The notes beneath the pieces are model-generated. The model ran no database searches and was not told the origin of the DNA. It saw only the letters and a program-made list of their open reading frames with translations. From Ruminococcus sp. AF41-9 (GTDB lineage Bacteria > Bacillota > Clostridia > Lachnospirales > Lachnospiraceae): a stretch of 64,000 bases of DNA. Positions 2,609 through 64,000 of this stretch are shown one piece after another. Made by a program: the position numbers and the translations under genes. Location: contig NZ_QUDO01000005.1 in the NCBI RefSeq assembly GCF_003477525.1, positions 67,389-131,388 on the forward strand, in the 5' to 3' direction. Position 1 is the stretch's first letter; the number at the start of each line of letters is the position of its first letter.

Positions 2609-3331
2609 CTAAAACTTACGATTCACATATTTCCTTATCGCATCCACAGACCGGTTCAGCACCAGCTCCTCCGGAAAATCCAGCTTTGTCAGCAGCTCTC
2701 TCGCCAGATCAAACTCTCCGATCAGCAGGTCAAAATGCGCATCACTGTCCATCACAACCGGAACCTGATATTTCTTACACAGATTCAGCATCACTGTGTC
2801 ATTCTCCACCGCATTCTCACGGGTACACTCCGGCTCCATAGAATGATTGTTCAACTCAAGAACCTTCCCGTATTCCTTCGCCCCCTGAACCAGAGCCTCA
2901 TAATCAATCTCATATCTTCCATCATCCGGATGCCCGATAATATTCACATAAGGATTCTTCATCGCATTCAGATAAGCCTCCGTATTCTCATTTCTGGATG
3001 CAGGCTTCATACAAGGAGTATGCAGACTCGCGATCACCACATCCATACCGGAAAGCGTCTGCTGCCCCAGATCCACAGTTCCCTGCGCATCCAGAATATT
3101 CACCTCAGAACCCAGCAGAAGCTGAATCCCGTACATCTCCCTCGGCACAACCTTAAGATTGTGAAAATAAAACTTATGGCAGGTTCCCGGCATACTCGGT
3201 GCATGTTCCGTAATCCCCAGAAGCTCCAGCCCCTTATCCGCTGCCGCCTTCGCCATCTCCCTCAGAGAGCAATATGCATGACCACTGGCAACTGTATGTG
3301 TATGTAAATCCAATACTGAACTGTATTTCAT
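2609..3331 (-). CDS. PHP-domain phosphoesterase (YcdX-like)
   Basis: A 240-residue PHP-domain metal-dependent phosphoesterase. Metal-binding motifs are visible: DLHTHTVASGHAYCS at residues 7-21, GITEHAP, LGSEVN, ASLHTP, IIGHPDDGRYEID and MDSDAHFD. The set and order match stand-alone YcdX-type PHP phosphatases rather than histidinol phosphatase or PolC. The start at 3331 (MKYSSVLDLH) was chosen because GAGGAG lies 8 bases upstream and the motif block starts at once; a longer frame to 3415 adds 28 unlike residues. The substrate is unknown. It lies 28 bases downstream of the sensor kinase on the same strand reading, separated from the permease remnant by a terminator. Confidence 0.85.
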   Translation of the reverse strand: MKYSSVLDLHTHTVASGHAYCSLREMAKAAADKGLELLGITEHAPSMPGTCHKFYFHNLKVVPREMYGIQLLLGSEVNILDAQGTVDLGQQTLSGMDVVIASLHTPCMKPASRNENTEAYLNAMKNPYVNIIGHPDDGRYEIDYEALVQGAKEYGKVLELNNHSMEPECTRENAVENDTVMLNLCKKYQVPVVMDSDAHFDLLIGEFDLARELLTKLDFPEELVLNRSVDAIRKYVNRKF

Positions 3332-3413
3332 AACTAAATTCTCCTCATTTCGTAAAAATCTTTCCCTCCCATTATACTTCCATCCCCCGCCATTCCACAA
3401 CCCCATTTTACGC

Positions 3414-3447
3414 AAAAAACAGAGCCTGCATTTTCAGCAAGCCCTGT
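3414..3447 (-). terminator. Intrinsic terminator after the sugar permease remnant
   Basis: Leftward-reading stem of 11 pairs (3437-3447 with 3419-3429, two wobble pairs) with a 7-base loop, followed by a run of six T on the minus strand. It lies between the permease 3' end and the PHP gene, so it marks the old end of the sugar transporter operon. Confidence 0.75.
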
Positions 3448-3480
3448 AAAAATTTTTGTTTCAAGGAGGAATACAAATTT

Positions 3481-3679
3481 TTATTTTACGATAAATGATT
3501 TTCTCTTACTTACAACATCAAAGATAACCGCTGCCAGCAAAACAAGACCCTTAACAACCTTCTGAATATTCTGGTCAATACCCATGATACTCATACCTAA
3601 GTTCAGGACACCCATTAAAAGAGCACCAATAATAACTCCCGGAACCGTACCGGTTCCACCATAAGCAGAAGCACCACCA
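3481..3679 (-). pseudogene. C-terminal fragment of sugar ABC permease (XylH/RbsC type)
   Basis: This fragment reads GGASAYGGTGTVPGVIIGALLMGVLNLGMSIMGID and ends QKVVKGLVLLAAVIFDVVSKRK. This is the conserved C-terminal end of the BPD_transp_2 permeases of ribose/xylose/galactose ABC importers. It is cut off from the rest of the gene (5536-5977) by the IS605 element; the frame continues across the junction once the element is removed. It has no start or ribosome site of its own and is presumably not made. The TTG that opens this frame lies inside the inserted element. Confidence 0.85.
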
Positions 3680-3830
3680 GTCAACTACCCATCACCTAAA
3701 GGTAATGGGCTTGTAACTGCCCAGTCGTAGTAACAGCTTACGCCTCCGACCTTTTATCCCCAATAAGCATTGCTGCCTAAAGTGGCGTTACATCATTGGG
3801 TGGTTGACAGCACCCTTTGTAGCAGAGTTT
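3660..3830 (-). ncRNA. Predicted omega-RNA (reRNA) of TnpB, with guide from the flanking permease
   Basis: TnpB elements make a guide RNA from the tnpB 3' end through the right end of the element. Here 149 noncoding bases (3680-3828) separate the tnpB stop from the element edge and contain the right-end hairpin CCCATTACC/GGTGATGGG. The first bases outside (minus strand from 3679) read TGGTGGTGCTTCTGCTTATG and would be the guide, matching the unoccupied permease allele. The 5' end is not defined by sequence; the position is by analogy to characterised TnpB systems. Confidence 0.5.
3688..3709. repeat. Right-end subterminal hairpin of the IS605 element
   Basis: CCCATCACC-TAAA-GGTAATGGG, with one mismatch. 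It shares the TAAA loop flanked by CC/GG with the left-end hairpin at 5483-5502. These are the structures TnpA recognises in single-stranded DNA in this family. Confidence 0.75.
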
Positions 3831-4968
3831 ACTCTGCTACAACTGTATTAGGTACTTGGCTATCAGCAAGATAGTTTATTCCCATACGATACAGATTCAT
3901 AGCTCCAATACGGTCATCATTAGACGTATAACCGCAGTTTTTGCAAGTAAACAAATGTATTTTCTTATTACGATTAGACTTTTCAGTATGTCCACAAGCA
4001 GGACAGCATTGACTGGTATAACGAGGATCCACCTTTATTACAGAAGATTGATTCTGCTTCGCTTTGTAAATCAGCTTCTGTTCAAGGTCATAAAAAGACC
4101 ATGATACAGAAACATAGCGGTCTTTTGTTTTGACACGTTCTGTAGCATTGCGAATACCAGTCAAATCTTCTAATACAAAGAGAGTATGCTTTGGATTACC
4201 GGTGGCGAGTGCCTTCGATACCTGATGGTTAATATCCTGCATCCAACGGTTTTCTCGCTGACCAATAGCTTTTAGTCTTCGCCTTGAGGATGGCGTATGT
4301 CGCATTTGAAGTTCTTTACGAAGCCTGGAATAATTAGCCCGTTTCTGTTTAATAGCTTTACCACTGACAAACCCAGACTTATGTTTGCTGTCATAAGTTG
4401 CAACAACAAAGTTAATACCTCTGTCAATGCCTACAACATTACAAATATCAGAAATATTACTTTCTTCAACCTCATAGGTAACTGGTATATGCAGATAGTA
4501 TTTACCATGTTTATTTACAAGTTTGGCAGTACCAAACTTGTAAATAGAATGGTTAAAATACTTAGACATACCCTCAGCAAAATAAGGAAGTTTCACACGA
4601 CCATTAAGCGTATTGACGGAAAAACAGTTTTGAGTTAAAGAATAATCTCTGTTCCAAACCAGGTCGTACTGAGGTTTTTTAAAAGATGGTTTTATCCATT
4701 CATTCTGATTTTCAAGAATGGTCTTATATCTTGCGATAACCGTTTTAAAAACAGACTGCGCCATTTGTGATTTGAGACTGAACTTTTCTCTTAGAGTAGA
4801 GTACAAAATTTTATTGAGTGAGAACTGCTTTAGGTCATGTGTGCGGAATACATAATCTGAAACATAATTACAGGCATCACAATAAACAGACATTGTTTTA
4901 TTAAGCAAAACTTTATCTGTATCAGTTGCAACTATCTGAACTTTTGCAGTTATAGTTATCTGTTCCAT
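3829..4968 (-). CDS. tnpB: TnpB RNA-guided endonuclease
   Basis: 379-residue TnpB with a full RuvC-like active site: first Asp in VGIDRGINFVVA (about residue 190), Glu in FVLEDLTGIR (about 270), last Asp in SNDDRIGAMNLYRMG (about 355). A four-Cys zinc ribbon (CCPACG and CKNCGYTS) lies between the second and third acids. The helix-turn-helix N-terminal part is present, giving the usual family length. TnpB cuts DNA at sites matching the guide next to the TAM and helps keep the element; it is not needed for transposition itself. Start 4968 has GAGAGGAG 8 bases upstream. Its own -35/-10 (TTGACA, 17 bp, TACACT) lies in the tnpA-tnpB gap. Confidence 0.93.
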   Translation of the reverse strand: MEQITITAKVQIVATDTDKVLLNKTMSVYCDACNYVSDYVFRTHDLKQFSLNKILYSTLREKFSLKSQMAQSVFKTVIARYKTILENQNEWIKPSFKKPQYDLVWNRDYSLTQNCFSVNTLNGRVKLPYFAEGMSKYFNHSIYKFGTAKLVNKHGKYYLHIPVTYEVEESNISDICNVVGIDRGINFVVATYDSKHKSGFVSGKAIKQKRANYSRLRKELQMRHTPSSRRRLKAIGQRENRWMQDINHQVSKALATGNPKHTLFVLEDLTGIRNATERVKTKDRYVSVSWSFYDLEQKLIYKAKQNQSSVIKVDPRYTSQCCPACGHTEKSNRNKKIHLFTCKNCGYTSNDDRIGAMNLYRMGINYLADSQVPNTVVAE

Positions 4969-54937: not shown

Positions 54938-57071
54938 CTACATGGACTTACGTTCCGCGATCTCCGCCATCTTTGCTTCATTCAGGCGGGTATCACCATG
55001 CACACGGCTGTAAGACAGGTATCCATTCATACGGTCAATCTTTGTCAGGTTCTTGGAGCCGCATACCGGGCATACATCCATTTCCAGTTCTTCGTGACCA
55101 CAGTCATCGCAGTAAGCCAGGGAAAGGTTTACACCCTCATAATATCCCAGAGACATCGCTCTGCGGATCAGGGTACGGATTGCTTCACGGTTATAGTCGA
55201 TCGGGTATCTTACATACTGGATCTTACCGCCATTACAAAGTTCCCAGAAACGTCCCTCCAGATCCTGTTTCTCGATCGGAGTCACGTCCTCTGTTACATG
55301 ACAGTGGAAACTGTTGCTTACATACGGACGGTCGGAAACGCCTTTTACGATACCATATTTCTTACGGAACTGCTCCACCTGAAGTCCGCAAAGACTCTCT
55401 GCCGGTGTTCCGTAAATTGCATAAAGGTAACCGTCCTGCTCTTTAAACTCATTGACTTTCTTATTGATATATTTCAGAACTTCCAGAGCAAACTGCCCAT
55501 CCTCGGCAATGGACTTGCCATTATAAAGTTCCTGAAGCTCATTTAAAGCTGTAATTCCAAAAGAAGCAGTCATCGGTTTCAGGATCTTGCCGATCTTTTC
55601 ATTCGGTTTCAGATGTCCGCCATAGAAACCGCCCTCGCAGTATCCCAGCGGGTTCGTGGATGCACGCATCTGTCCCAGATAATCATACGTACGAATATGA
55701 AGATTACGGATCATCTCAAGGTAGAAATCCAGTACCTCATAGAAATCTCTGCTCTCTGCTCTCGCTTTTGCAAGGATCATCGGAAGATGAAGACTTACTG
55801 CACCAATGTTAAATCGTCCTACAAACACTGGCACATCCTTGTCATCTGCCGGATACATACCGCCTCTCTCATACCACGGGCTTAAAAATGCACGGCATCC
55901 CATCGCTGATCACTTTTCCATACTGCTTGTACATACTGGAAATATAACCTTTTCCGGACATGGACAGCCAGTCCGGATACATGGTCTTTGCAGAACAGTC
56001 CACGCCTGCTTCAAACACATCCTCACTGATCTTGCCTTTTCCATGGATATTTTCATCATAAAGAAAAACAATCTTCGGGAAAAGTACCGGTTTCTTACGG
56101 TCTTTCTTGCCCTGTCCGCCTTTGTGTACCTCAAGGAGGGAAATACTTGCCATTTTCTCAAACTGTTTCGTTCCCAGTCCCAGAGTTACCGTTACGAACG
56201 GATAGTCTCCTCTGGAAGAACCTACAGTATTCAGCTTATATTCAATTCCCTGCCATCCCTGATCAAACTCTCTTCTGACTTTATCCAGAGCATATTCAAT
56301 GGCACGTTCCTCGCGTCCGCTCCAGTTCTCATCTGAATATTTCAGGAATTCCTGAATATATTTGTCATAGCTCTTCTGTGCGTACGGTGCAAGGATCTTG
56401 TCCACTTCCGGTACAGTAAAACCGCCATACTGCTGCGCCGCAGTACTCAGAATGATATCGCCCATAACATCAAATGCAGTATCCAGGGTTTTCGGCTCGT
56501 TGTACCATACATTGCCCATCTCAAAACCACCTTTGAGTACAGACGCCACATCAAAAAGACAGCAGTTCATGGTATCCAGACGTGCTGACTGGTCATGGAT
56601 ATAGATATATCCATCCTTACATGCCTGCAGTTCATTACGATTCATGAAAAACTTACGGTAAAGTTCTTTATTCAGCTCATTAAAAATCAGGCTTCGTTTC
56701 GTGGCAACCAGTGCACTGTCTGTATTGGCATTGCTCTTGTCTCCGATGTAACGGATCGCCTGACTCTTGGTGTACACATCATCCATCATATGAATGAAGT
56801 CAAGTTTATAGTTTCTGTAATCACGATAGCTCTTAGCTACAGCCGGGTTTACTCTCTCCAGGGCACCCTCTACGATATTATGCATCTCCTGAATCTGAAT
56901 CTCATTCTTCCCCAGAGACGCTGCATGCTCCTCCGCAAACCGGCAGATAAATTCTTTCTCTTTGTCAGAAAATGTATATAAGATTCTGGCTGCCGACTTA
57001 TTTACTGCTGCTACGATTTTCTGTGAATTAAACTCTTCCCTTGTACCATCTTTCTTGATTACATATATCAT
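54938..57071 (-). pseudogene. nrdD: Anaerobic ribonucleoside-triphosphate reductase NrdD, broken by a 2-base deletion (probable sequencing error)
   Basis: Frames 55869-57071 and 54938-55903 form one class III reductase of about 711 residues. ATP-cone at the N-terminus (MIYVIKKDGTREEFNSQKIV), catalytic barrel (GYIYIHDQSARLDTMNCCLF, TVGSSRGDYPFVTVTLG), glycyl radical site RMNGYLSYSRVHG, and zinc site CDDCG...CPVCGS. At about 55904 the conserved VISPMGCR reads VISDGMP; adding CC restores ISPMGCRAFLSPWYERGG. An anaerobe with no other reductase in view should need it, so an assembly error is likely. The start at 57071 has TAGGAG 9 bases upstream. No nrdG follows within the window's adjacent gene space. 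Confidence 0.9.
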
Positions 57072-57086
57072 ACCATTTGCTCCTAC

Positions 57087-57134
57087 ATACAATATATAGT
57101 ATTATTTCCTTTCGTTGACCACAATTTATTCTAT
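57087..57134 (-). promoter_or_regulatory. Pair of NrdR boxes upstream of nrdD
   Basis: Box 1, 57087-57102, reads ATACTATATATTGTAT on the minus strand, 14 of 16 to the NrdR consensus. Box 2, 57119-57134, CCACAATTTATTCTAT on the plus strand, about 12 of 16. Centres lie 32 bp apart, about three turns, the usual NrdR spacing. Confidence 0.75.
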
Positions 57135-57191
57135 ATGTGGTACGTTTATCAAGTATAGCACAGTCTCTCTCAAAAGGGAAGGGGAAAAAAA

Positions 57192-58040
57192 TTATTCGTC
57201 ATATTGCTGAATTTGATATAACGCCACGTAATTGTACTGCTCATCCAGAGAGACTGCCGTGAGCTCATATCCGGTATGTAATTCAACTCTCTCCTGCTGC
57301 TTCGCTTTGTCAAATTTCACAGTTTCTGTCTTTCCGGAAGGCTCTGTGATTTCCAGTGCAACTGCCTCCCAGCCGGATTCAATGATATATTCTCCCGGAA
57401 TGATCTCATTCTCTCCTGCCACACAGGTTCCTGCATCTGTATCAATATAAAAGCTCTCATACTCCGCCAGTTCTTCCTGACTGAGAGGCAGTCCATAATC
57501 CTCTTTCTTCTCAGAAAATATTCCGGTTATATCAATTCCCAGCTCATCACTGACAAAATTCTCAATCTCATATCCGATACGTTCTGCATACTCCGGAGCA
57601 TACTCGATCAACGCAACCACACCTGCCAGGATCACCCAGAAAATAACCGCTTTTTTGCTTTTTCTTTTCTTCTTTTTTGCCGGAGCAGGGCTTTTTCCCG
57701 CATATGTACGGGCAGTCTGTGCCGCAGCAGTCTGTTTTTTTGCAGTCTGCTTTCTCACATCCTGAGTTTTAATATTCTGCGCTTTTACAGTCTGATTCTT
57801 CGTCTTCCGCGCATTTACATTCTGCGTCTTTGTCGTCCCTGACACAGTCCGGCTTCTGTCCGGCAGCGGAATCTCGCTTTCCCTCATGGCCTTTCTCACC
57901 TTTGCAGACGCATGGCGGTAATGTTCTGACCGGTCCTCATTTAAATGATACAGCTCTGCATCACATCTATACGGCATTCCACAGTATTTACATCTGCCAT
58001 CTACGATCGGCCCGTCACAGACCTGACATCTTTTTCCCAT
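57192..58040 (-). CDS. Zinc-ribbon membrane protein of unknown function
   Basis: 282 residues. N-terminal zinc ribbon CQVCDGPIVDGRCKYCG (residues 5-21), then a long basic, Lys/Gln/Thr-rich linker with near-repeats (TQNVNARKTKNQTVKAQNIK, TQDVRKQTAKKQTAAAQTA). A membrane helix follows (AVIFWVILAGVVALIEYAP, about 130-148) and an outside domain of about 130 residues, LSQEELAEYESFYIDTDAGT to the end, with GENEIIPGEYIIESGWEAVA. The end recalls small beta domains found in Lachnospiraceae lipoprotein-like proteins, but I do not recognise a named family. AAAGGGGG precedes the ATG. It probably has its own transcript between nrdD and asnA. Confidence 0.75.
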   Translation of the reverse strand: MGKRCQVCDGPIVDGRCKYCGMPYRCDAELYHLNEDRSEHYRHASAKVRKAMRESEIPLPDRSRTVSGTTKTQNVNARKTKNQTVKAQNIKTQDVRKQTAKKQTAAAQTARTYAGKSPAPAKKKKRKSKKAVIFWVILAGVVALIEYAPEYAERIGYEIENFVSDELGIDITGIFSEKKEDYGLPLSQEELAEYESFYIDTDAGTCVAGENEIIPGEYIIESGWEAVALEITEPSGKTETVKFDKAKQQERVELHTGYELTAVSLDEQYNYVALYQIQQYDE

Positions 58041-58186
58041 CTCTCGTCCCCCTTTATCAAAAAATCAAACGGATATTTACCGTTTCCTGATAACAGTTTC
58101 CGTTTCCTGTCCCTCAACGGGATATTTTCTCCCATTCTTCGTCTCAATTTATTTTAACATTTTATCCCAATCTTGCAATGTCTAAA
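58041..58186. other. Gap between the divergent zinc-ribbon gene and asnA
   Basis: No gene; AT-rich. It should hold the leftward promoter for the zinc-ribbon gene; none is clear. The asnA promoter and leader follow at 58187. Confidence 0.4.
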
Positions 58187-58215
58187 TTGCCAACCGGGCA
58201 GTTTCCTGTTATAAT
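58187..58215 (+). promoter_or_regulatory. Promoter of asnA
   Basis: TTGCCA (58187-58192), 17 bp spacer, TATAAT (58210-58215). The transcript would begin near 58222, about 200 bases before asnA. Confidence 0.8.
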
Positions 58216-58221
58216 GTCGAA

Positions 58222-58420
58222 GGAAAAGATTGTTACCGTTCATCCACTGTTATCCGAAAAGCAGGCTCCCCGTCGGACTGTACGGGCAGCACAGACAGTA
58301 ACAAAAGATTAATGGATATTCAACACTGGCATCCCACCAAAATACTGCACCGGATGACTGCAATGTTTTCGTGGCCTGCTATCGAATATGCAAGCATAAA
58401 AATGTAGGAGGAATCAAACA
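58222..58420 (+). ncRNA. Long structured leader of asnA (unidentified)
   Basis: TTGTTAC (58230-58236) pairs with GTAACAA (58298-58304), enclosing CCCGT/ACGGG extended by GCT/AGC (58265-58290). ATCCA (58242-58246) can pair with TGGAT (58313-58317) outside that stem, which would make a pseudoknot. CATCC (58330-58334) can pair with GGATG (58352-58356). No T-box AGGGTGG-ACCGCG motif and no T-run terminator were seen. Role unknown. Confidence 0.4.
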
Positions 58421-59428
58421 ATGGAACAGATTAAAATTCCAGATGGTTACCATTCATCTCTGAATCTCCATGACACTCAGATTGCCATCAAGACTGTGAA
58501 AGATTTCTTTCAGCAGACTCTGGCTCAGAAACTGAACCTGCTTCGTGTTTCTGCACCTGTATTTGTCAATCCGTCTTCCGGTCTGAATGATAACTTAAAC
58601 GGCGTAGAACGTCCGGTCAGCTTCGATATCAAAGGACAGCCGGAAAACGCCGAGATCGTACACTCCCTTGCAAAATGGAAAAGATACGCATTAAAGAAAT
58701 ACGGATTCGCACACGGCGAAGGTCTTTACACTGACATGATCGCGATCCGCCGCGACGAAGATCTGGACAACATCCACTCCGTATATGTAGACCAGTGGGA
58801 CTGGGAAAAAATCATCAGCAAAGAAGAAAGAAACATGGACACACTGGTTTCCACAGTGCGTGCAATCTACAGTGTTCTTCGTAAAACAGAGAAATACATG
58901 GCTGTACAGTACGATTACATCGAAGAAATCCTTCCAAGAGAAATCGCATTCGTCAGCACTCAGGAACTGGTTGACATGTATCCGGATCTCACTCCGAAGG
59001 AACGTGAATACAAGATCGTTAAGGAAAAAGGTGCTGTTTTCCTTATGCAGGTAGGTAAAACCTTAAGCAACGGAGAACGCCACGACGGACGTGCCCCGGA
59101 CTATGATGACTGGGAATTAAACGGTGATATCCTCGTTTACTATCCGGTTCTCGACATTGCTCTGGAACTTTCTTCCATGGGTATCCGTGTAGACGAAGAA
59201 TCACTTGACAGCCAGCTTACCATCGCAGGCTGCGACGACAGACGTGAGCTTCCGTTCCAGAAAGCCATCCTCAATCAGGAACTTCCTTACACGATCGGCG
59301 GTGGTATCGGACAGTCCCGTATCTGTATGTTCTTCCTCAGAAAGGCCCACATCGGCGAAGTACACGCTTCCCTGTGGCCGAAAGAAGTTATGGAAGAGGC
59401 AGAGGCAAAGGGCGTACAGCTTCTGTAG
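58421..59428 (+). CDS. asnA: Aspartate-ammonia ligase (AsnA)
   Basis: 335 residues, the usual length. LRVSAPVFVNPSSGLNDNLNGVERPV, EIVHSLAKWKRYAL, DMIAIRRDEDLDNIHSVYVDQWDWE, LPYTIGGGIGQSR and HIGEVHASLWP are signatures of this class II synthetase-like enzyme. It makes asparagine from aspartate, ammonia and ATP. GTAGGAGG lies 7 bases before ATG. A CBS-domain gene follows 135 bases later. Confidence 0.98.
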   Translation: MEQIKIPDGYHSSLNLHDTQIAIKTVKDFFQQTLAQKLNLLRVSAPVFVNPSSGLNDNLNGVERPVSFDIKGQPENAEIVHSLAKWKRYALKKYGFAHGEGLYTDMIAIRRDEDLDNIHSVYVDQWDWEKIISKEERNMDTLVSTVRAIYSVLRKTEKYMAVQYDYIEEILPREIAFVSTQELVDMYPDLTPKEREYKIVKEKGAVFLMQVGKTLSNGERHDGRAPDYDDWELNGDILVYYPVLDIALELSSMGIRVDEESLDSQLTIAGCDDRRELPFQKAILNQELPYTIGGGIGQSRICMFFLRKAHIGEVHASLWPKEVMEEAEAKGVQLL

Positions 59429-59563
59429 CCGACACCTTTCTCCAGGCAGTAAGCGATCTGATCTGCGGTTCACTCAGTGCCCGATATTACACTTTCCGGG
59501 ATTTTATCAGTGAACAGCAGCATCTCTTAACACTATGAACTATGTAATGGGGTAAATACGAAA

Positions 59564-60007
59564 GTGAATATTTTATTTTTCTTAACACCCAAAAGTGAAG
59601 TTGCCTACATTTTTGAAGATGAAACCTTACGTCAGACTGTTGAAAAAATGGAACACAGAAAATTTTCCTGTATTCCCATGCTGAGTCTGGACGGCAAATA
59701 TCTGGGAACCATCTCCGAGGGCGATCTTCTCTGGGGAATGAAAACACTGAACGTCTCAAATCTGAAGTCTGCTGAAGATATTTCCATTATGGCAATCCCG
59801 CGCCGTGCTACCTATAAGGCAGTTCACGCAGATTCCAAAATGGAAGACCTTCTGGACTGCGCCATCAACCAGAACTTTGTTCCGGTCGTAGACGATCAGG
59901 GATTCTTTATCGGTATCATTACCCGTAAAGAAATCATCAAATACTGCTATAAAGAGCTGAAAAAATACGCAGCTTCTGAAGCTTCCGAAAAGCCGGAGCA
60001 GCAGTAA
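59564..60007 (+). CDS. CBS-domain protein
   Basis: 147 residues starting GTG 59564. Two CBS units in tandem (IFEDETLRQTVEKMEHRKFSCIPMLSLDGKYLGTISEGDLL and ADSKMEDLLDCAINQNFVPVVDDQGFFIGIITRKEII), the pattern of AcuB-like sensors of adenine nucleotides. No effector domain is attached. The ribosome site (GGGG) is weak. It may be read through from asnA. Ligand and target unknown. Confidence 0.85.
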   Translation: MNILFFLTPKSEVAYIFEDETLRQTVEKMEHRKFSCIPMLSLDGKYLGTISEGDLLWGMKTLNVSNLKSAEDISIMAIPRRATYKAVHADSKMEDLLDCAINQNFVPVVDDQGFFIGIITRKEIIKYCYKELKKYAASEASEKPEQQ

Positions 60008-60071
60008 TATAAAGCAGCAGGCAGAACCAGACGGCTGCCTGAGAACATCGATGCCTGTCTGTCTGCACAAT

Positions 60072-60115
60072 AAAAAAGCTGTAATGAGTCTTTTTTCACT
60101 CATTGCAGCTTTTTT
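60072..60115. terminator. Bidirectional terminator after the CBS gene
   Basis: AAAAAAGCTGTAATGAGT (60072-60089) with ACTCATTGCAGCTTTTTT (60098-60115), an 18-base arm pair with one mismatch, flanked by A and T runs in its own ends. Confidence 0.85.
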
Positions 60116-60193
60116 CATCATGGTTCTTTACTGACCTTTTTATTATCTTTTATTATCTTTCCTGATCTTTTATGCTGTCTTTTCTGTGTTTTC

Positions 60194-61123
60194 TCACTTC
60201 TGTGCCAGCAGCTTTCCAAACAAAGCCGCCAGAACCTGCTGGAACAGCGTCCCGATCATAACCGGAAAAAGCACCTCTCCCGGAAAATAAGCCGCTGCGA
60301 TCACAGCTCCCGCACTGATATTCCGCATCCCGGTTCCGTACATCATGGAAACTGCGGTTGCGCGGTCCTGCCGGAAAAGATGAGCCACCAGCCATCCCAG
60401 TGCATATCCGCTGGCTGCCAGAACCAGAATCGCACCAGCCACCTTTACCCTCTGTAAATTCATGTTCCGGACATAAGGTGCCACCTTCGAGGAATTGGAA
60501 GTCACCACAAAGATCAGTGCCATTTTCGAAAAAGGAGCCAGCTTTCCCGGCCAGGTTTTCATTACTTTTCCTTTGGTCACTTCGTTCAGTGCCATTGCCA
60601 GAACTGCCGGAAACGCAACCATAAAGACCAGCTCACGCATCATCTTCGAAGTATCCATGGTAACGCTCGAACCAATCAGGATCCGCAGCGTCAGCGGAAT
60701 CAGAAACGGCGCCAGGATCGTATCCAGAATAACCAGTGACAGTGACAATGGACTGTTTCCGTCATAAATCGTCACCCACATCAGCCCGACCACAGCCGTA
60801 GGTACTGCAAACTCCAGCACCATCCCCGTGATCAGCTCCGGATTATCTCCGAAGAAAAGATGTCCTGCCGCACACGCTGCGGAAGGAATTACTGCATGAA
60901 GCAGCACCAGAATGGTCAATAATGCTCCCGGATGTCCGAACACATTCGCCACATCCCGAAAACGCGATTTCAACGCCCCGGTAAATGTCATAAACGCAAA
61001 TACCACTGTCACAAACGGAAGTCCATGCTTCGCAATATCCGGAAAACACACTCCGAACAGCAGGCAGGTGGGTGTCACCAGCGCCATCCATTTTTCTATA
61101 AAACGATTAAATCTGTTCAGCAT
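60194..61123 (-). CDS. Bile acid:sodium symporter family (BASS/SBF) membrane protein
   Basis: 309 residues, about nine or ten helices. PTCLLFGVCFPDIAKHG, FMTFTGALKSRFRDV, PTAVVGLMWVTIYDGN, MRELVFMVAFPAVLA and SMMYGTGMRNISAGAVIAAAYFPGEVLFPVMIGTLFQQ fit the SBF family (the last block holds the cross-over motif). The ATG follows the glnQ-like stop without a gap (TAAATG) and has no ribosome site, so translation would depend on the upstream gene. The substrate is unknown; many bacterial BASS proteins carry organic acids or keto acids, not bile acids. Confidence 0.85.
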   Translation of the reverse strand: MLNRFNRFIEKWMALVTPTCLLFGVCFPDIAKHGLPFVTVVFAFMTFTGALKSRFRDVANVFGHPGALLTILVLLHAVIPSAACAAGHLFFGDNPELITGMVLEFAVPTAVVGLMWVTIYDGNSPLSLSLVILDTILAPFLIPLTLRILIGSSVTMDTSKMMRELVFMVAFPAVLAMALNEVTKGKVMKTWPGKLAPFSKMALIFVVTSNSSKVAPYVRNMNLQRVKVAGAILVLAASGYALGWLVAHLFRQDRATAVSMMYGTGMRNISAGAVIAAAYFPGEVLFPVMIGTLFQQVLAALFGKLLAQK

Positions 61124-61864
61124 TTATAATACTTTTGAAAGGAAATCTTTCAGTCTCTGGTTCTTCGGATTTCCAAAGAACTCCTTCGGAGAATTTTCTT
61201 CCTGAATCTTACCGTCATCAATGAAAAGAACTCTGGTTGCAACCTCTCTCGCAAATCCCATTTCGTGAGTAACCACTACCATGGTCATACCGGACTGTGC
61301 CAGTTCCTTCATCAGCTCCAGAACCTCTCCTACCATCTCAGGGTCAAGCGCGGAAGTCGGCTCATCAAACAGCATGACATCCGGATTCATTGCCAGTGCA
61401 CGTGCAATTGCAATACGCTGTTTCTGACCGCCGGAAAGCATATCCGGGTAGGCATTTGCCTTGTCAGGAAGCCCTACTCGTGCCAGAAGTTCATCCGCTT
61501 TTTTGGATGCTTCCTCTTTTGTCATCAGTTTCAGCTCTACCGGTGCCAGCATAATGTTCTGCTTCACCGTCTTATGCGGGAAAAGATTAAACTGCTGGAA
61601 CACCATGCCGATTTTCTGACGGTGTCTGTTAATATCAACCTTCGGATCTGTAATATCTGTTCCTTCAAAGAGGATCTTGCCCCCTGTCGGAACTTCCAGA
61701 AGATTCAGGGAACGAAGGAAAGTGGATTTACCGGAACCGGAAGGACCGATGATTGCTACTACTTCTCCCTGACAGATATCTGTGGTAATTCCATCCAGAA
61801 CCTGATTGGCACCAAACGCCTTTTTCAGATCCTGCACCTGGATCAGTACATTTTTATCGCTCAC
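61124..61864 (-). CDS. glnQ: Polar amino acid ABC transporter, ATP-binding protein (GlnQ-like)
   Basis: 246 residues. The GTG start at 61864 overlaps the permease gene by 11 bases; AAAGGAG lies about 12 bases upstream. Walker [28 protein letters not shown], signature [16 protein letters not shown], Walker [14 protein letters not shown] and switch His in [10 protein letters not shown]. Matches GlnQ/HisP family. It energises uptake with the adjacent permease and the permuted binding protein. Specificity (Gln, Arg, Cys or other) cannot be read from the ATPase. Confidence 0.95.
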
Positions 61865-62561
61865 TGGTTCTTAATCTCCTTTCCAGTTTATTCATACCCC
61901 ATGTAAGAAGTCCAACGATCACAAGATAGATCGCCGCTGCCGCCATCAACGGCCAGAATGCGTTATAAGTACGGCTCTGGATCAGCATTGCACCTTTGGT
62001 AAGATCCATCATACCGATGTAACCGATAATAGATGTCTCTTTGATCAGCACAATAAACTCATTTACCAGTGCCGGAAGCACATTCTTAAACGCCTGCGGG
62101 ATAATGATCAGACGCATGGTCTGGCTGAAATTCAGTCCCAGGCTTCGTCCTGCTTCTGTCTGTCCCTGGTCAATGGACATGATACCGGAACGCACGATCT
62201 CAGCCACATAAGCACCGGAGTTGATACCGAAGGCAAGACCGCCGACGATAATCTTATTAATGCTCACAGAACCAAAAATTACAAAGTTCATGATCAGTAA
62301 CTGGATCATGGTCGGTGTTCCACGGATCACGGTCAGGTATACTCTGCAGACTGCATTGAGTATCTTAAAAGATCCTGACTTATCATGTGCGGAACGGATG
62401 ATTGCTACCAGAAAACCGATGATCAGTCCGACGATCACTGCGAATACAGTAATGATCAGAGTTGTTTTCAGACCATCCAGAAGCCACAGGTAACGGTCAT
62501 CTTTAATAAAGTTCAGATAAAAATCTTCTTTTACACTCGCTAAAATCATAGGATTATTCAT
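61854..62561 (-). CDS. Polar amino acid ABC transporter permease
   Basis: 235 residues, five helices. The HisMQ-type N-terminus ([26 protein letters not shown]), [18 protein letters not shown] and the EAA loop [30 protein letters not shown] are clear. It forms a homodimeric channel. AGAGGTTTTT precedes the ATG. It is 132 bases after the binding-protein gene, with a stem-loop between. Confidence 0.95.
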
Positions 62562-62582
62562 AAAAACCTCTGTCTCGAAAAG

Positions 62583-62611
62583 AGAGCTGTTGGCAGATTG
62601 TCAACAGCTCT
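62583..62611. terminator. Stem-loop between the binding-protein gene and the permease
   Basis: AGAGCTGTTG (62583-62592) with CAACAGCTCT (62602-62611), 10 perfect pairs, followed on the minus strand by CTTTTC. Likely a partial terminator favouring the binding protein, as at 15947-15983 in the liv operon. Confidence 0.65.
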
Positions 62612-62693
62612 GTTGTTATTTTTTATGTTTTACGGATTGCAGATGTTACTATTCACACCGTGCACAGTAACTTTCAGATACAAAGCTCAGGAA

Positions 62694-63482
62694 TTATTTC
62701 TTTACAATGATAACCTGGCTTGCATTTGCATAAGTATCTGTAAAATCAACGCTTGATTTACGGTCTTCTGTTACAGTCATTCCTGCTGCACCGAAATCAG
62801 CTTTACCGGACTGTACTGCCGGAAGAATGGAGTCAAATTCCATATCTTCAATCTTCAGTTCATATCCAAGTTTGTCACAGATTGCCTGGGCGATATCTGC
62901 GTCGATACCTACGATATCATCACCTTCGTGGTATTCATATGGCTCGAACTCAGCGTTGGTAGCCATTACCAGAGTTCCGTTGGAACGGTCAACGTCTTCC
63001 GGAGATTCATATGGAGTCTTGCCTGCATCATCACCGATATAGTTATCCATGATGCTGTCGATAGTTCCGTCTTCTTTCAGTTCTTCCAAAGCTCCGTTGA
63101 TCTTGTCAAGAAGTTCATCGTTACCCTTCTTTAAGCAGATTGCATACTCTTCTTCTTCGAATGGCTCATCCAGGATCTTAAGGTCGTCGTTATTCTCAGC
63201 AAATTTCGCTGCCGGCTGTGAATCAATGATCACACAGTCGATCTGTCCTGCCTTTAACGCCTGAACTGCTTCGCTTCCTTTATTATAACGCTCAACTGTA
63301 GATCCGTCTTTTTCATAATCAGAAGCGTCAAGGTCGCCTGTGGTACCAAGCTGTACACCGATAGTTGCGCCTGCAAGGTCATCTTTGGATGCTACTTCCT
63401 TCGATGCATATACATTGCCTGCCATAGAAACTACCATGATTGCACTTAATGCAAGAGCTGCAAATCTCTTTTTGTCTTTCAT
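62694..63482 (-). CDS. Amino acid ABC transporter substrate-binding protein, circularly permuted
   Basis: 262 residues from ATG 63482 (GAGGAGG, 7 bases upstream). Signal peptide to about VYASKE. The domain order is reversed compared with GlnH/HisJ: residues about 30-165 (SKDDLAGATIGVQLGTTGDL, ERYNKGSEAVQALKAGQIDC, DDLKILDEPF, LKEDGTIDSIMDNYIGDD) match what is normally the second half. After a short linker (AGKTPYESPEDVDRS) residues about 185-262 (GTLVMATNAEFEPYEYHEGD, IVGIDADIAQAICDKLGY, MEFDSILPAVQSGKADFGAA, GMTVTEDRKSSVDFTDTYAN) match the normal first half and end at VIIVKK, the usual hinge. All parts of a type II binding fold are present once. No lipobox Cys; SMAGN stands where a lipobox SMAGC would be. 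Confidence 0.9.
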   Translation of the reverse strand: MKDKKRFAALALSAIMVVSMAGNVYASKEVASKDDLAGATIGVQLGTTGDLDASDYEKDGSTVERYNKGSEAVQALKAGQIDCVIIDSQPAAKFAENNDDLKILDEPFEEEEYAICLKKGNDELLDKINGALEELKEDGTIDSIMDNYIGDDAGKTPYESPEDVDRSNGTLVMATNAEFEPYEYHEGDDIVGIDADIAQAICDKLGYELKIEDMEFDSILPAVQSGKADFGAAGMTVTEDRKSSVDFTDTYANASQVIIVKK

Positions 63483-63642
63483 GTCTTTTCCTCCTCGCAC
63501 CCGAAAGTAAATAAAAATATCCACCTGTGTCCACATAAGGAGGCGTAAGTATATTTATTCACTCTGGCTGTATATATTTTATATTTTGTCTTTAATTTTA
63601 ACATACTTTTCACAAATTGCAAGCCTTTGTGACAGGTAAAAC

Positions 63643-63671
63643 TTGCATAACAGAATACGTTTTTTTATAAT
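63643..63671 (+). promoter_or_regulatory. Rightward promoter toward the window edge
   Basis: TTGCAT (63643-63648), 17 bp spacer, TATAAT (63666-63671). No gene follows in the remaining 330 bases, so it likely serves a gene beyond the window or a small RNA. The rest of the 63483-64000 gap shows an AT-rich leftward promoter zone and a GTTACTG...CAGTAAC pair (63829-63872). Confidence 0.6.
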
Positions 63672-63913
63672 GTATAATGTTAATATTCCCATAAACGGAA
63701 GATAAAGGAAAAATTTCACTTTTTCATAACATTTATCCTTTATGATAAGAACATATCGGGTAAATCCGCAGGTGATTCCTGATCAGTCAGAGATTTACTG
63801 CCGGAGTATCCCGTGGGGAAAGAACCGTTACTGATATCATTCCTGTTGTCAGAAATGGAGCGGACAGTAACACGAATGTATAAATAATGAAATAGGTAAT
63901 TGCGAAACTCGCG

Positions 63914-63964
63914 GTGCTCGTTCGCAACCTTGAACCAAAACAAGGAAGAATTCGCGAAGAGCAC
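63914..63964. repeat. Nested palindromic element
   Basis: Outer arms GTGCTCGTTCGC (63914-63925) and GCGAAGAGCAC (63954-63964), inner arms CCTTG (63928-63932) and CAAGG (63941-63945), loop AACCAAAA. No T-run follows. Looks like an intergenic repeat sequence of the genome. Confidence 0.55.
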
Positions 63965-64000
63965 GACTTGTGGAATGAAAAATGGATAATCGGACATTTT

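Follow-up and report, generated by a model that had tools for sequence, protein, structure and literature searches.

A naturally circularly permuted SBP_bac_3 protein in Ruminococcus sp. AF41-9 and its relatives in other rotations

We describe here a gene of Ruminococcus sp. AF41-9 that encodes a naturally circularly permuted protein of the SBP_bac_3 family. It occupies positions 62694 to 63482 on the minus strand of the DNA analysed, a stretch of 64,000 nucleotides of contig NZ_QUDO01000005.1 that is referred to below as the window. Amino-acid-binding proteins are generally presented as having a single chain order, with two lobes linked by two hinge strands. In terms of the segments used here, namely the normal first half (N), lobe 2 (L2) and a tail segment (T), the canonical order is N-L2-T, whereas the window protein reads L2-T-N, termed type 1. 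It is very likely that this protein is a circular permutant in a three-gene ATP-binding cassette (ABC) importer, with a chain that passes through lobe 2, hinge strand 2 and lobe 1 and ends in a free hinge strand 1.

Results

The open reading frame runs from ATG to stop and yields 262 residues, whose assignment as a permuted amino-acid-binding protein draws on matches to Pfam, the PDB and segment profiles. At its start (approximately residues 1-26, 63405-63482, minus strand as for all following segments) lies a putative signal peptide with an A-x-A-like end and without a lipobox cysteine, recognized by eye, by pattern scans and from a helix at residues 3-21 of the AlphaFold model. Segment L2 follows directly (lobe 2, residues 27-100, 63183-63404), with a profile score of 122.6 bits and with the isolated domain 2 of TmArgBP aligning to residues 28-110. 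In segment T (residues 101-152, 63027-63182; 102.1 bits), the last strand of lobe 2 and hinge strand 2 lead into the C-terminal tail of lobe 1, with a strand at 109-118 and helices at 122-148 in the model. A linker (residues 153-164, 62991-63026) then bridges the former chain ends, from C-terminus to N-terminus; it measures 12 residues between the segment envelopes, and about 20 residues are unstructured in the model. The protein closes with segment N, which ends in hinge strand 1 (residues 165-262, 62697-62990; 186.4 bits; model strand 252-261). The names of lobes and hinge strands were assigned from the AlphaFold model and the structure of GlnH.

Database matches reproduce this order. The family profile PF00497 (SBP_bac_3) matches the window protein in two pieces, scoring 127.4 bits (cut-off 26.4), which places it in the family, and the best piece aligns residues 171-262 to positions 1-92 of the 132 profile positions, that is, to the start of the profile. 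The canonical order, which is typical of the family and not demanded by the Pfam cut-off, is absent. In phmmer searches of the PDB, query residues 167-261 align to residues 9-104 of AncQR (4zv1) and query residues 28-150 to its residues 108-233; likewise, residues 164-261 align to the first part of TmArgBP (6svf) and residues 32-148 to the second. An initial annotation of the letters had proposed a second half placed first, a linker and then the first half, each present exactly once, and both claims are borne out, as the segment profiles give a single match each for L2, T and N. No extra segment copy or half-domain remnant scored above 0 bits outside the gene when positions 57000-64000, including 518 bases upstream, were read in six frames through stops (best score, -0.7). 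No match to PF04069, the OpuAC family, was obtained at an E value of 0.001. Among the NCBIfam equivalogs, all 14 listed models stayed below their cut-offs, the best being TIGR01096 (151.9 against 256.35 bits), and the swapped order itself may be the cause of these low scores. As in other naturally permuted binding proteins, the segments thus follow one another in a rotation of the order seen in canonical relatives, and they do so in a conserved gene.

The AlphaFold model shows a confident two-lobe fold (pLDDT, the predicted local distance difference test score, of 92.9), and its lobes match those of solved relatives, a comparison of the kind that the initial annotation had suggested. Five residues (T47, T48, D87, F179 and R241) are invariant in all 65 permuted sequences compared, and five more are nearly so (F216 in 64, Q44 and G234 in 63, T236 in 61 and N176 in 60). 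We presume that these ten correspond to the GlnH positions that contact the alpha-amino and carboxylate groups and line the pocket; the window protein accordingly carries the residues expected to hold an alpha-amino acid. The window gene evolves under purifying selection, with a ratio of non-synonymous to synonymous substitution rates (dN/dS) of 0.049-0.100 in six pairs, saturated in one, when compared to seven orthologues from Blautia and metagenome-assembled genomes (MAGs). It might be argued that a duplication left behind a decayed gene or one whose product no longer binds, given that one of the two usual covalent hinge connections is missing and that the subclade of the window protein has no lipobox. 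However, dN/dS values of 0.05 to 0.10, conserved ligand residues, an intact operon and a confidently predicted fold make such a leftover very improbable. The initial annotation's working natural permutation is the reading favoured by the conservation, the selection, the predicted pocket and model, and the operon.

The ligand is probably a polar or cationic amino acid. The best NCBIfam model describes lysine/arginine/ornithine binding and scores below its cut-off, and the polar or cationic specificity is therefore a guess. RNA families gave no clue to the ligand in positions 57000-64000, with two weak, chance-like matches only, and no leader common to the operon was detected among 16 relatives searched for RNA families. 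In the same search, one T-box was seen about 2.3 kb downstream in locus L029 and one piece of a group II intron in L021.

The type-1 order is widespread. In a scan of genome records, 40 of 51 loci read in the permuted C-N order and 11 in the N-C order; besides many MAGs, the isolates include Blautia wexlerae, B. glucerasea, B. schinkii and B. parvula as well as Fusicatenibacter, Oliverpabstia, Drancourtella and Sellimonas. Homologues with the same order, which the initial annotation had asked for, thus form a conserved clade, in which B. wexlerae is nearest to the window protein in the tree (96% over 223 columns); the window thus very likely comes from a member of Blautia. P0016, an entry of the protein database with the same sequence as the window protein, represents 142 members. 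At least one type-1 protein was present in 32 of 150 genomes drawn from the family of bacteria. A full-span match to a permuted query can be mimicked by canonical tandems, as in L222 and L224, whose inner part imitates the order; the order in the 32 genomes was therefore read on the loci, and it was confirmed in all of them.

These canonical mimics also bear on the possibility that two tandem canonical domains, or two paralogues, were collapsed by assembly into an apparent permutant. Chimera-like proteins do occur in the metagenome sets, the order L2-T-N-L2-T being read in 58 and N-L2-T-N in 13 of the 188 proteins kept from two protein searches, and P0060 by eye resembles first a permuted and then a canonical relative. 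Yet plain L2-T-N is found in isolates and MAGs of many species and has diverged under selection, and L2-T-N-L2-T is read in none of the 197 distinct proteins that the fetched loci and the window encode. No N segment precedes L2-T-N either, because the order starts right after the signal peptide. Since the order recurs in many independent assemblies, the local misassembly that the initial annotation had named as a refutation does not explain it, and an artefact is extremely unlikely.

The C-N-C proteins (about 390 residues) were considered as living intermediates of permutation and were set aside as most likely chimeras. Nearly all of them are one-member clusters. Some occur on several contigs (P0127 on seven, P0035 on four and P0060 on three), and there is possibly a real minority among them. 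Many C-N-C and N-C-N metagenome proteins (P0002-P0188) look like assembly chimeras in which permuted and canonical paralogues are joined at shared motifs.

As the initial annotation had noted, the gene lies in an operon with an intact permease and ATPase, both of which follow on the same strand. Profile matches identify a BPD_transp_1 permease of the polar-amino-acid type (61854-62561, minus strand) and an ATPase nearest to the GlnQ and TcyN models, below their cut-offs (61124-61864, minus strand). The window protein is very likely the binding protein of this three-gene ABC importer. A ribosome-binding site read from the sequence, GAGGAGG, is located seven bases 5' of the ATG (63490-63496, minus strand). 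Between the binding-protein and permease genes, folding predicts a hairpin (62583-62611; z -2.9 for a 132-base stretch), possibly an attenuator that lowers permease expression. The fetched loci and the window contain 83 distinct type-1 genes that stand alone. Permease and ATPase genes lie downstream of 80 of them; two of the others have a permease only, close to where the stretch ends, and one has neither. Fourteen further type-1 proteins are fused to a permease, with an ATPase next in 13 of them. If the window protein were instead a sensor or scavenger serving another transporter, not dedicated to the adjacent permease, the missing lipobox and a hairpin that may uncouple expression would be readily accommodated. 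The retention of both neighbours in the stand-alone genes and the fusion of relatives to a homologous permease speak against this role, which we regard as unlikely, and in favour of the dedicated importer.

The family in Bacillota is re-ordered with at least three cut points. Loci were mostly chosen by similarity to permuted queries, so that the following proportions are not frequencies. The 197 distinct proteins comprise 97 of type 1 (L2-T-N), 46 canonical N-L2-T and ten canonical N-T, 27 of type 2 (T-N-L2), three of type 3 (L2-T-N-L2) and 14 others, mostly tandems fused to a permease. The type-2 chain begins immediately ahead of hinge strand 2 and stops after a helix of lobe 2 (alignment of 26 proteins; model pLDDT 90.2). 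Its members (L116, 890-1756, minus strand; L115, L117, L118, L130, L131, L153-L160 and L169-L180; P0189-P0308 in the protein set) have permease and ATPase downstream in 24 of 27 cases, a permease only near the stretch end in two and neither in one. The type-2 match pattern was present in 15 of 150 genomes of the family, and all six of these that were fetched read T-N-L2. A protein search with a type-2 query returned the same order in each of the best 120 of 7988 matches, among them proteins of Acetivibrio thermocellus, A. clariflavus and Thermoclostridium stercorarium. Type 3 is cut inside lobe 2, between the first long helix and the following strand, and is represented by L219 (1390-2196, minus strand), L221 (654-1550, plus strand) and L230 (1396-2214, minus strand), all three with permease and ATPase downstream. 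In 398 genomes drawn from the phylum, a match at an E value of 1e-40 or better was found in 21, with type 1 in five (G001, G270, G294, G764 and G818), type 2 in one (G244), type 3 in three (G780, G915 and G961) and the canonical order, in part as tandems, in the rest. All three cut points lie within lobe 2 or at its border, in a survey whose segment profiles demand an intact N segment and would miss cuts inside that half. In each of the three orders, the N-terminus is thereby shifted from lobe 1 to lobe 2 or the hinge.

Two variant loci were seen alongside these types. In the 615-residue protein of L162 (3183-5030, minus strand), a permuted amino-acid-binding domain comes after an N-terminal half of another kind, which by eye looks like a type I sugar-type binding protein, and L120 carries two adjoining permuted binding-protein genes (2936-3724 and 3896-4687, plus strand), then open reading frames of permease and ATPase size.

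Discussion

The three differing cut points require at least three rearrangements, whatever the tree. A tree of 55 rows needs seven changes in all for the three orders (type 1, three; type 2, four; canonical, six). Approximately unbiased (AU) tests rejected a single canonical clade (p 0.016) but neither a single type-1 clade (p 0.12) nor a single type-2 clade (p 0.18); we accordingly count no fewer than one event for each cut point. Half-wise trees of the N and C parts place B. wexlerae, B. schinkii and L017 nearest to the window protein, whose clade lies on one side of a branch in the N tree and needs four changes in the C tree.

The most likely origin is an in-frame tandem of the binding domain that was trimmed from both ends, which is plausible but unproven. 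The initial annotation had suggested such a tandem duplication, and the tandem genes of relatives fit it, whereas the searched flanks held no remnant and no direct intermediate was established. Canonical tandems are found in L201 (three domains and a permease), L222 and L224, and tandems of the permuted order in L114, L163, L164, L167 and L168. In L114 (2106-5537, plus strand), L062 and L164 (2203-5190, minus strand), two or three permuted binding domains stand in tandem, fused to a permease, and the chains of L114 and L062, the latter cut at the locus end, contain ATPase sequence too.

In the proposed mechanism, the chain would run from lobe 2 through hinge strand 2 into all of lobe 1 and leave it by hinge strand 1 as a free C-terminal strand. 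Because the cut lies after hinge strand 1, the lobes would be covalently joined by one crossover, not two, and both chain ends would lie on the side of the hinge and lobe 2. As in GlnH, an alpha-amino acid may be trapped between the closing lobes, and the protein may dock on the permease in this closed state. The N-terminal point of export and anchoring would thereby be moved off lobe 1, and the C-terminus could run straight into a permease, as it does in the 14 fused relatives.

A lipobox anchor is usual in Gram-positive bacteria and does not define the family. By a simple pattern, a lipobox was detected in 74 of 97 type-1, all 27 type-2 and all three type-3 proteins, including other Blautia proteins such as that of B. 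parvula (L023). Anchoring was raised as a possible reason for the permutation of TpMglB-2 (PMC4990184), and by analogy it may favour permutation in SBP_bac_3. Our wider proposal is that the family in Bacillota has been recurrently permuted, with at least three cuts in lobe 2 or at the hinge border, because chain ends placed there shift the membrane anchor, and in some lineages also the fusion to the permease, from lobe 1 to the hinge side; chain order would then be under selection in tethered uptake proteins. We offer this only tentatively and rate its chances at distinctly less than even.

Several observations weigh against the favoured picture of a permuted importer component. OpuAC, which among PDB entries matches the window model best over its full length, superposes on it at a root-mean-square deviation of 5.3 A only, and Foldseek TM-scores reach 0.32-0.49, values obtained with sequential aligners, which cannot fairly score a permuted fold. 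The half-wise trees are poorly resolved and differ in detail, with about half of the forks open in both, and the 518 bases searched upstream contained no remnant of a tandem. Finally, a signal-peptidase-I-like end takes the place of the lipobox cysteine in the window protein and in its nearest relatives (L001-L015, L017 and L038). Retention at the membrane of this Gram-positive cell is therefore harder to account for in the window protein, which the anchor idea fits least well.

Natural permutation is already known from other binding proteins, such as the type II glycine-betaine binding proteins, in which 2b4l (OpuAC) is reported to be permuted relative to 1r9l and 1sw1 (PMC2395249). OpuAC/ProX and the window protein have in common a natural circular permutation in a type II fold; they differ in family and in ligand, which is a betaine in OpuAC/ProX. 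In sequence, each half of the window protein still shows about 50-77% identity to canonical SBP_bac_3 paralogues within the same bacterial family, and its permutation is therefore separate from, and much younger than, that of OpuAC/ProX. The sugar-binding protein TpMglB-2 (Tp0684), described as 'Type Ic', is likewise a natural circular permutant (PMC4990184). In contrast to the window protein, with its type II fold, its putative amino acid ligand and the loss of one crossover, TpMglB-2 has a type I fold, binds glucose and has gained a fourth hinge crossover. Proteins of the GlnH/HisJ/ArtI type share the Pfam family, ligand residues and operon type with the window protein and differ in chain order. 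In GlnPQ, binding domains are fused to the permease, as they are in relatives of the window protein, some in tandem before the permease; however, the GlnPQ domains are canonical (6h30), whereas in the fused relatives lobe 1 continues into the permease from its hinge-side end. A literature search confined to open-licence papers found no report of permutation in SBP_bac_3 amino-acid-binding proteins, which we observe here in several rotations.

Three rotated orders beside the canonical one, in transporter operons and in relatives with about 50-77% identity per half, provide a natural experiment on whether affinity, closing rate and docking depend on the number of covalent hinge crossovers, and the rotated relatives form a series in which the origin of circular permutations can be studied. 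For annotators, permuted proteins score as two domain pieces, and metagenome assemblies of this family seem rich in chimeras.

Adjoining the operon, positions 58421-60007 and 60194-61123 of the window hold asnA, a CbpB-like CBS protein (below the model cut-off) and a transporter of the bile-acid-symporter family.
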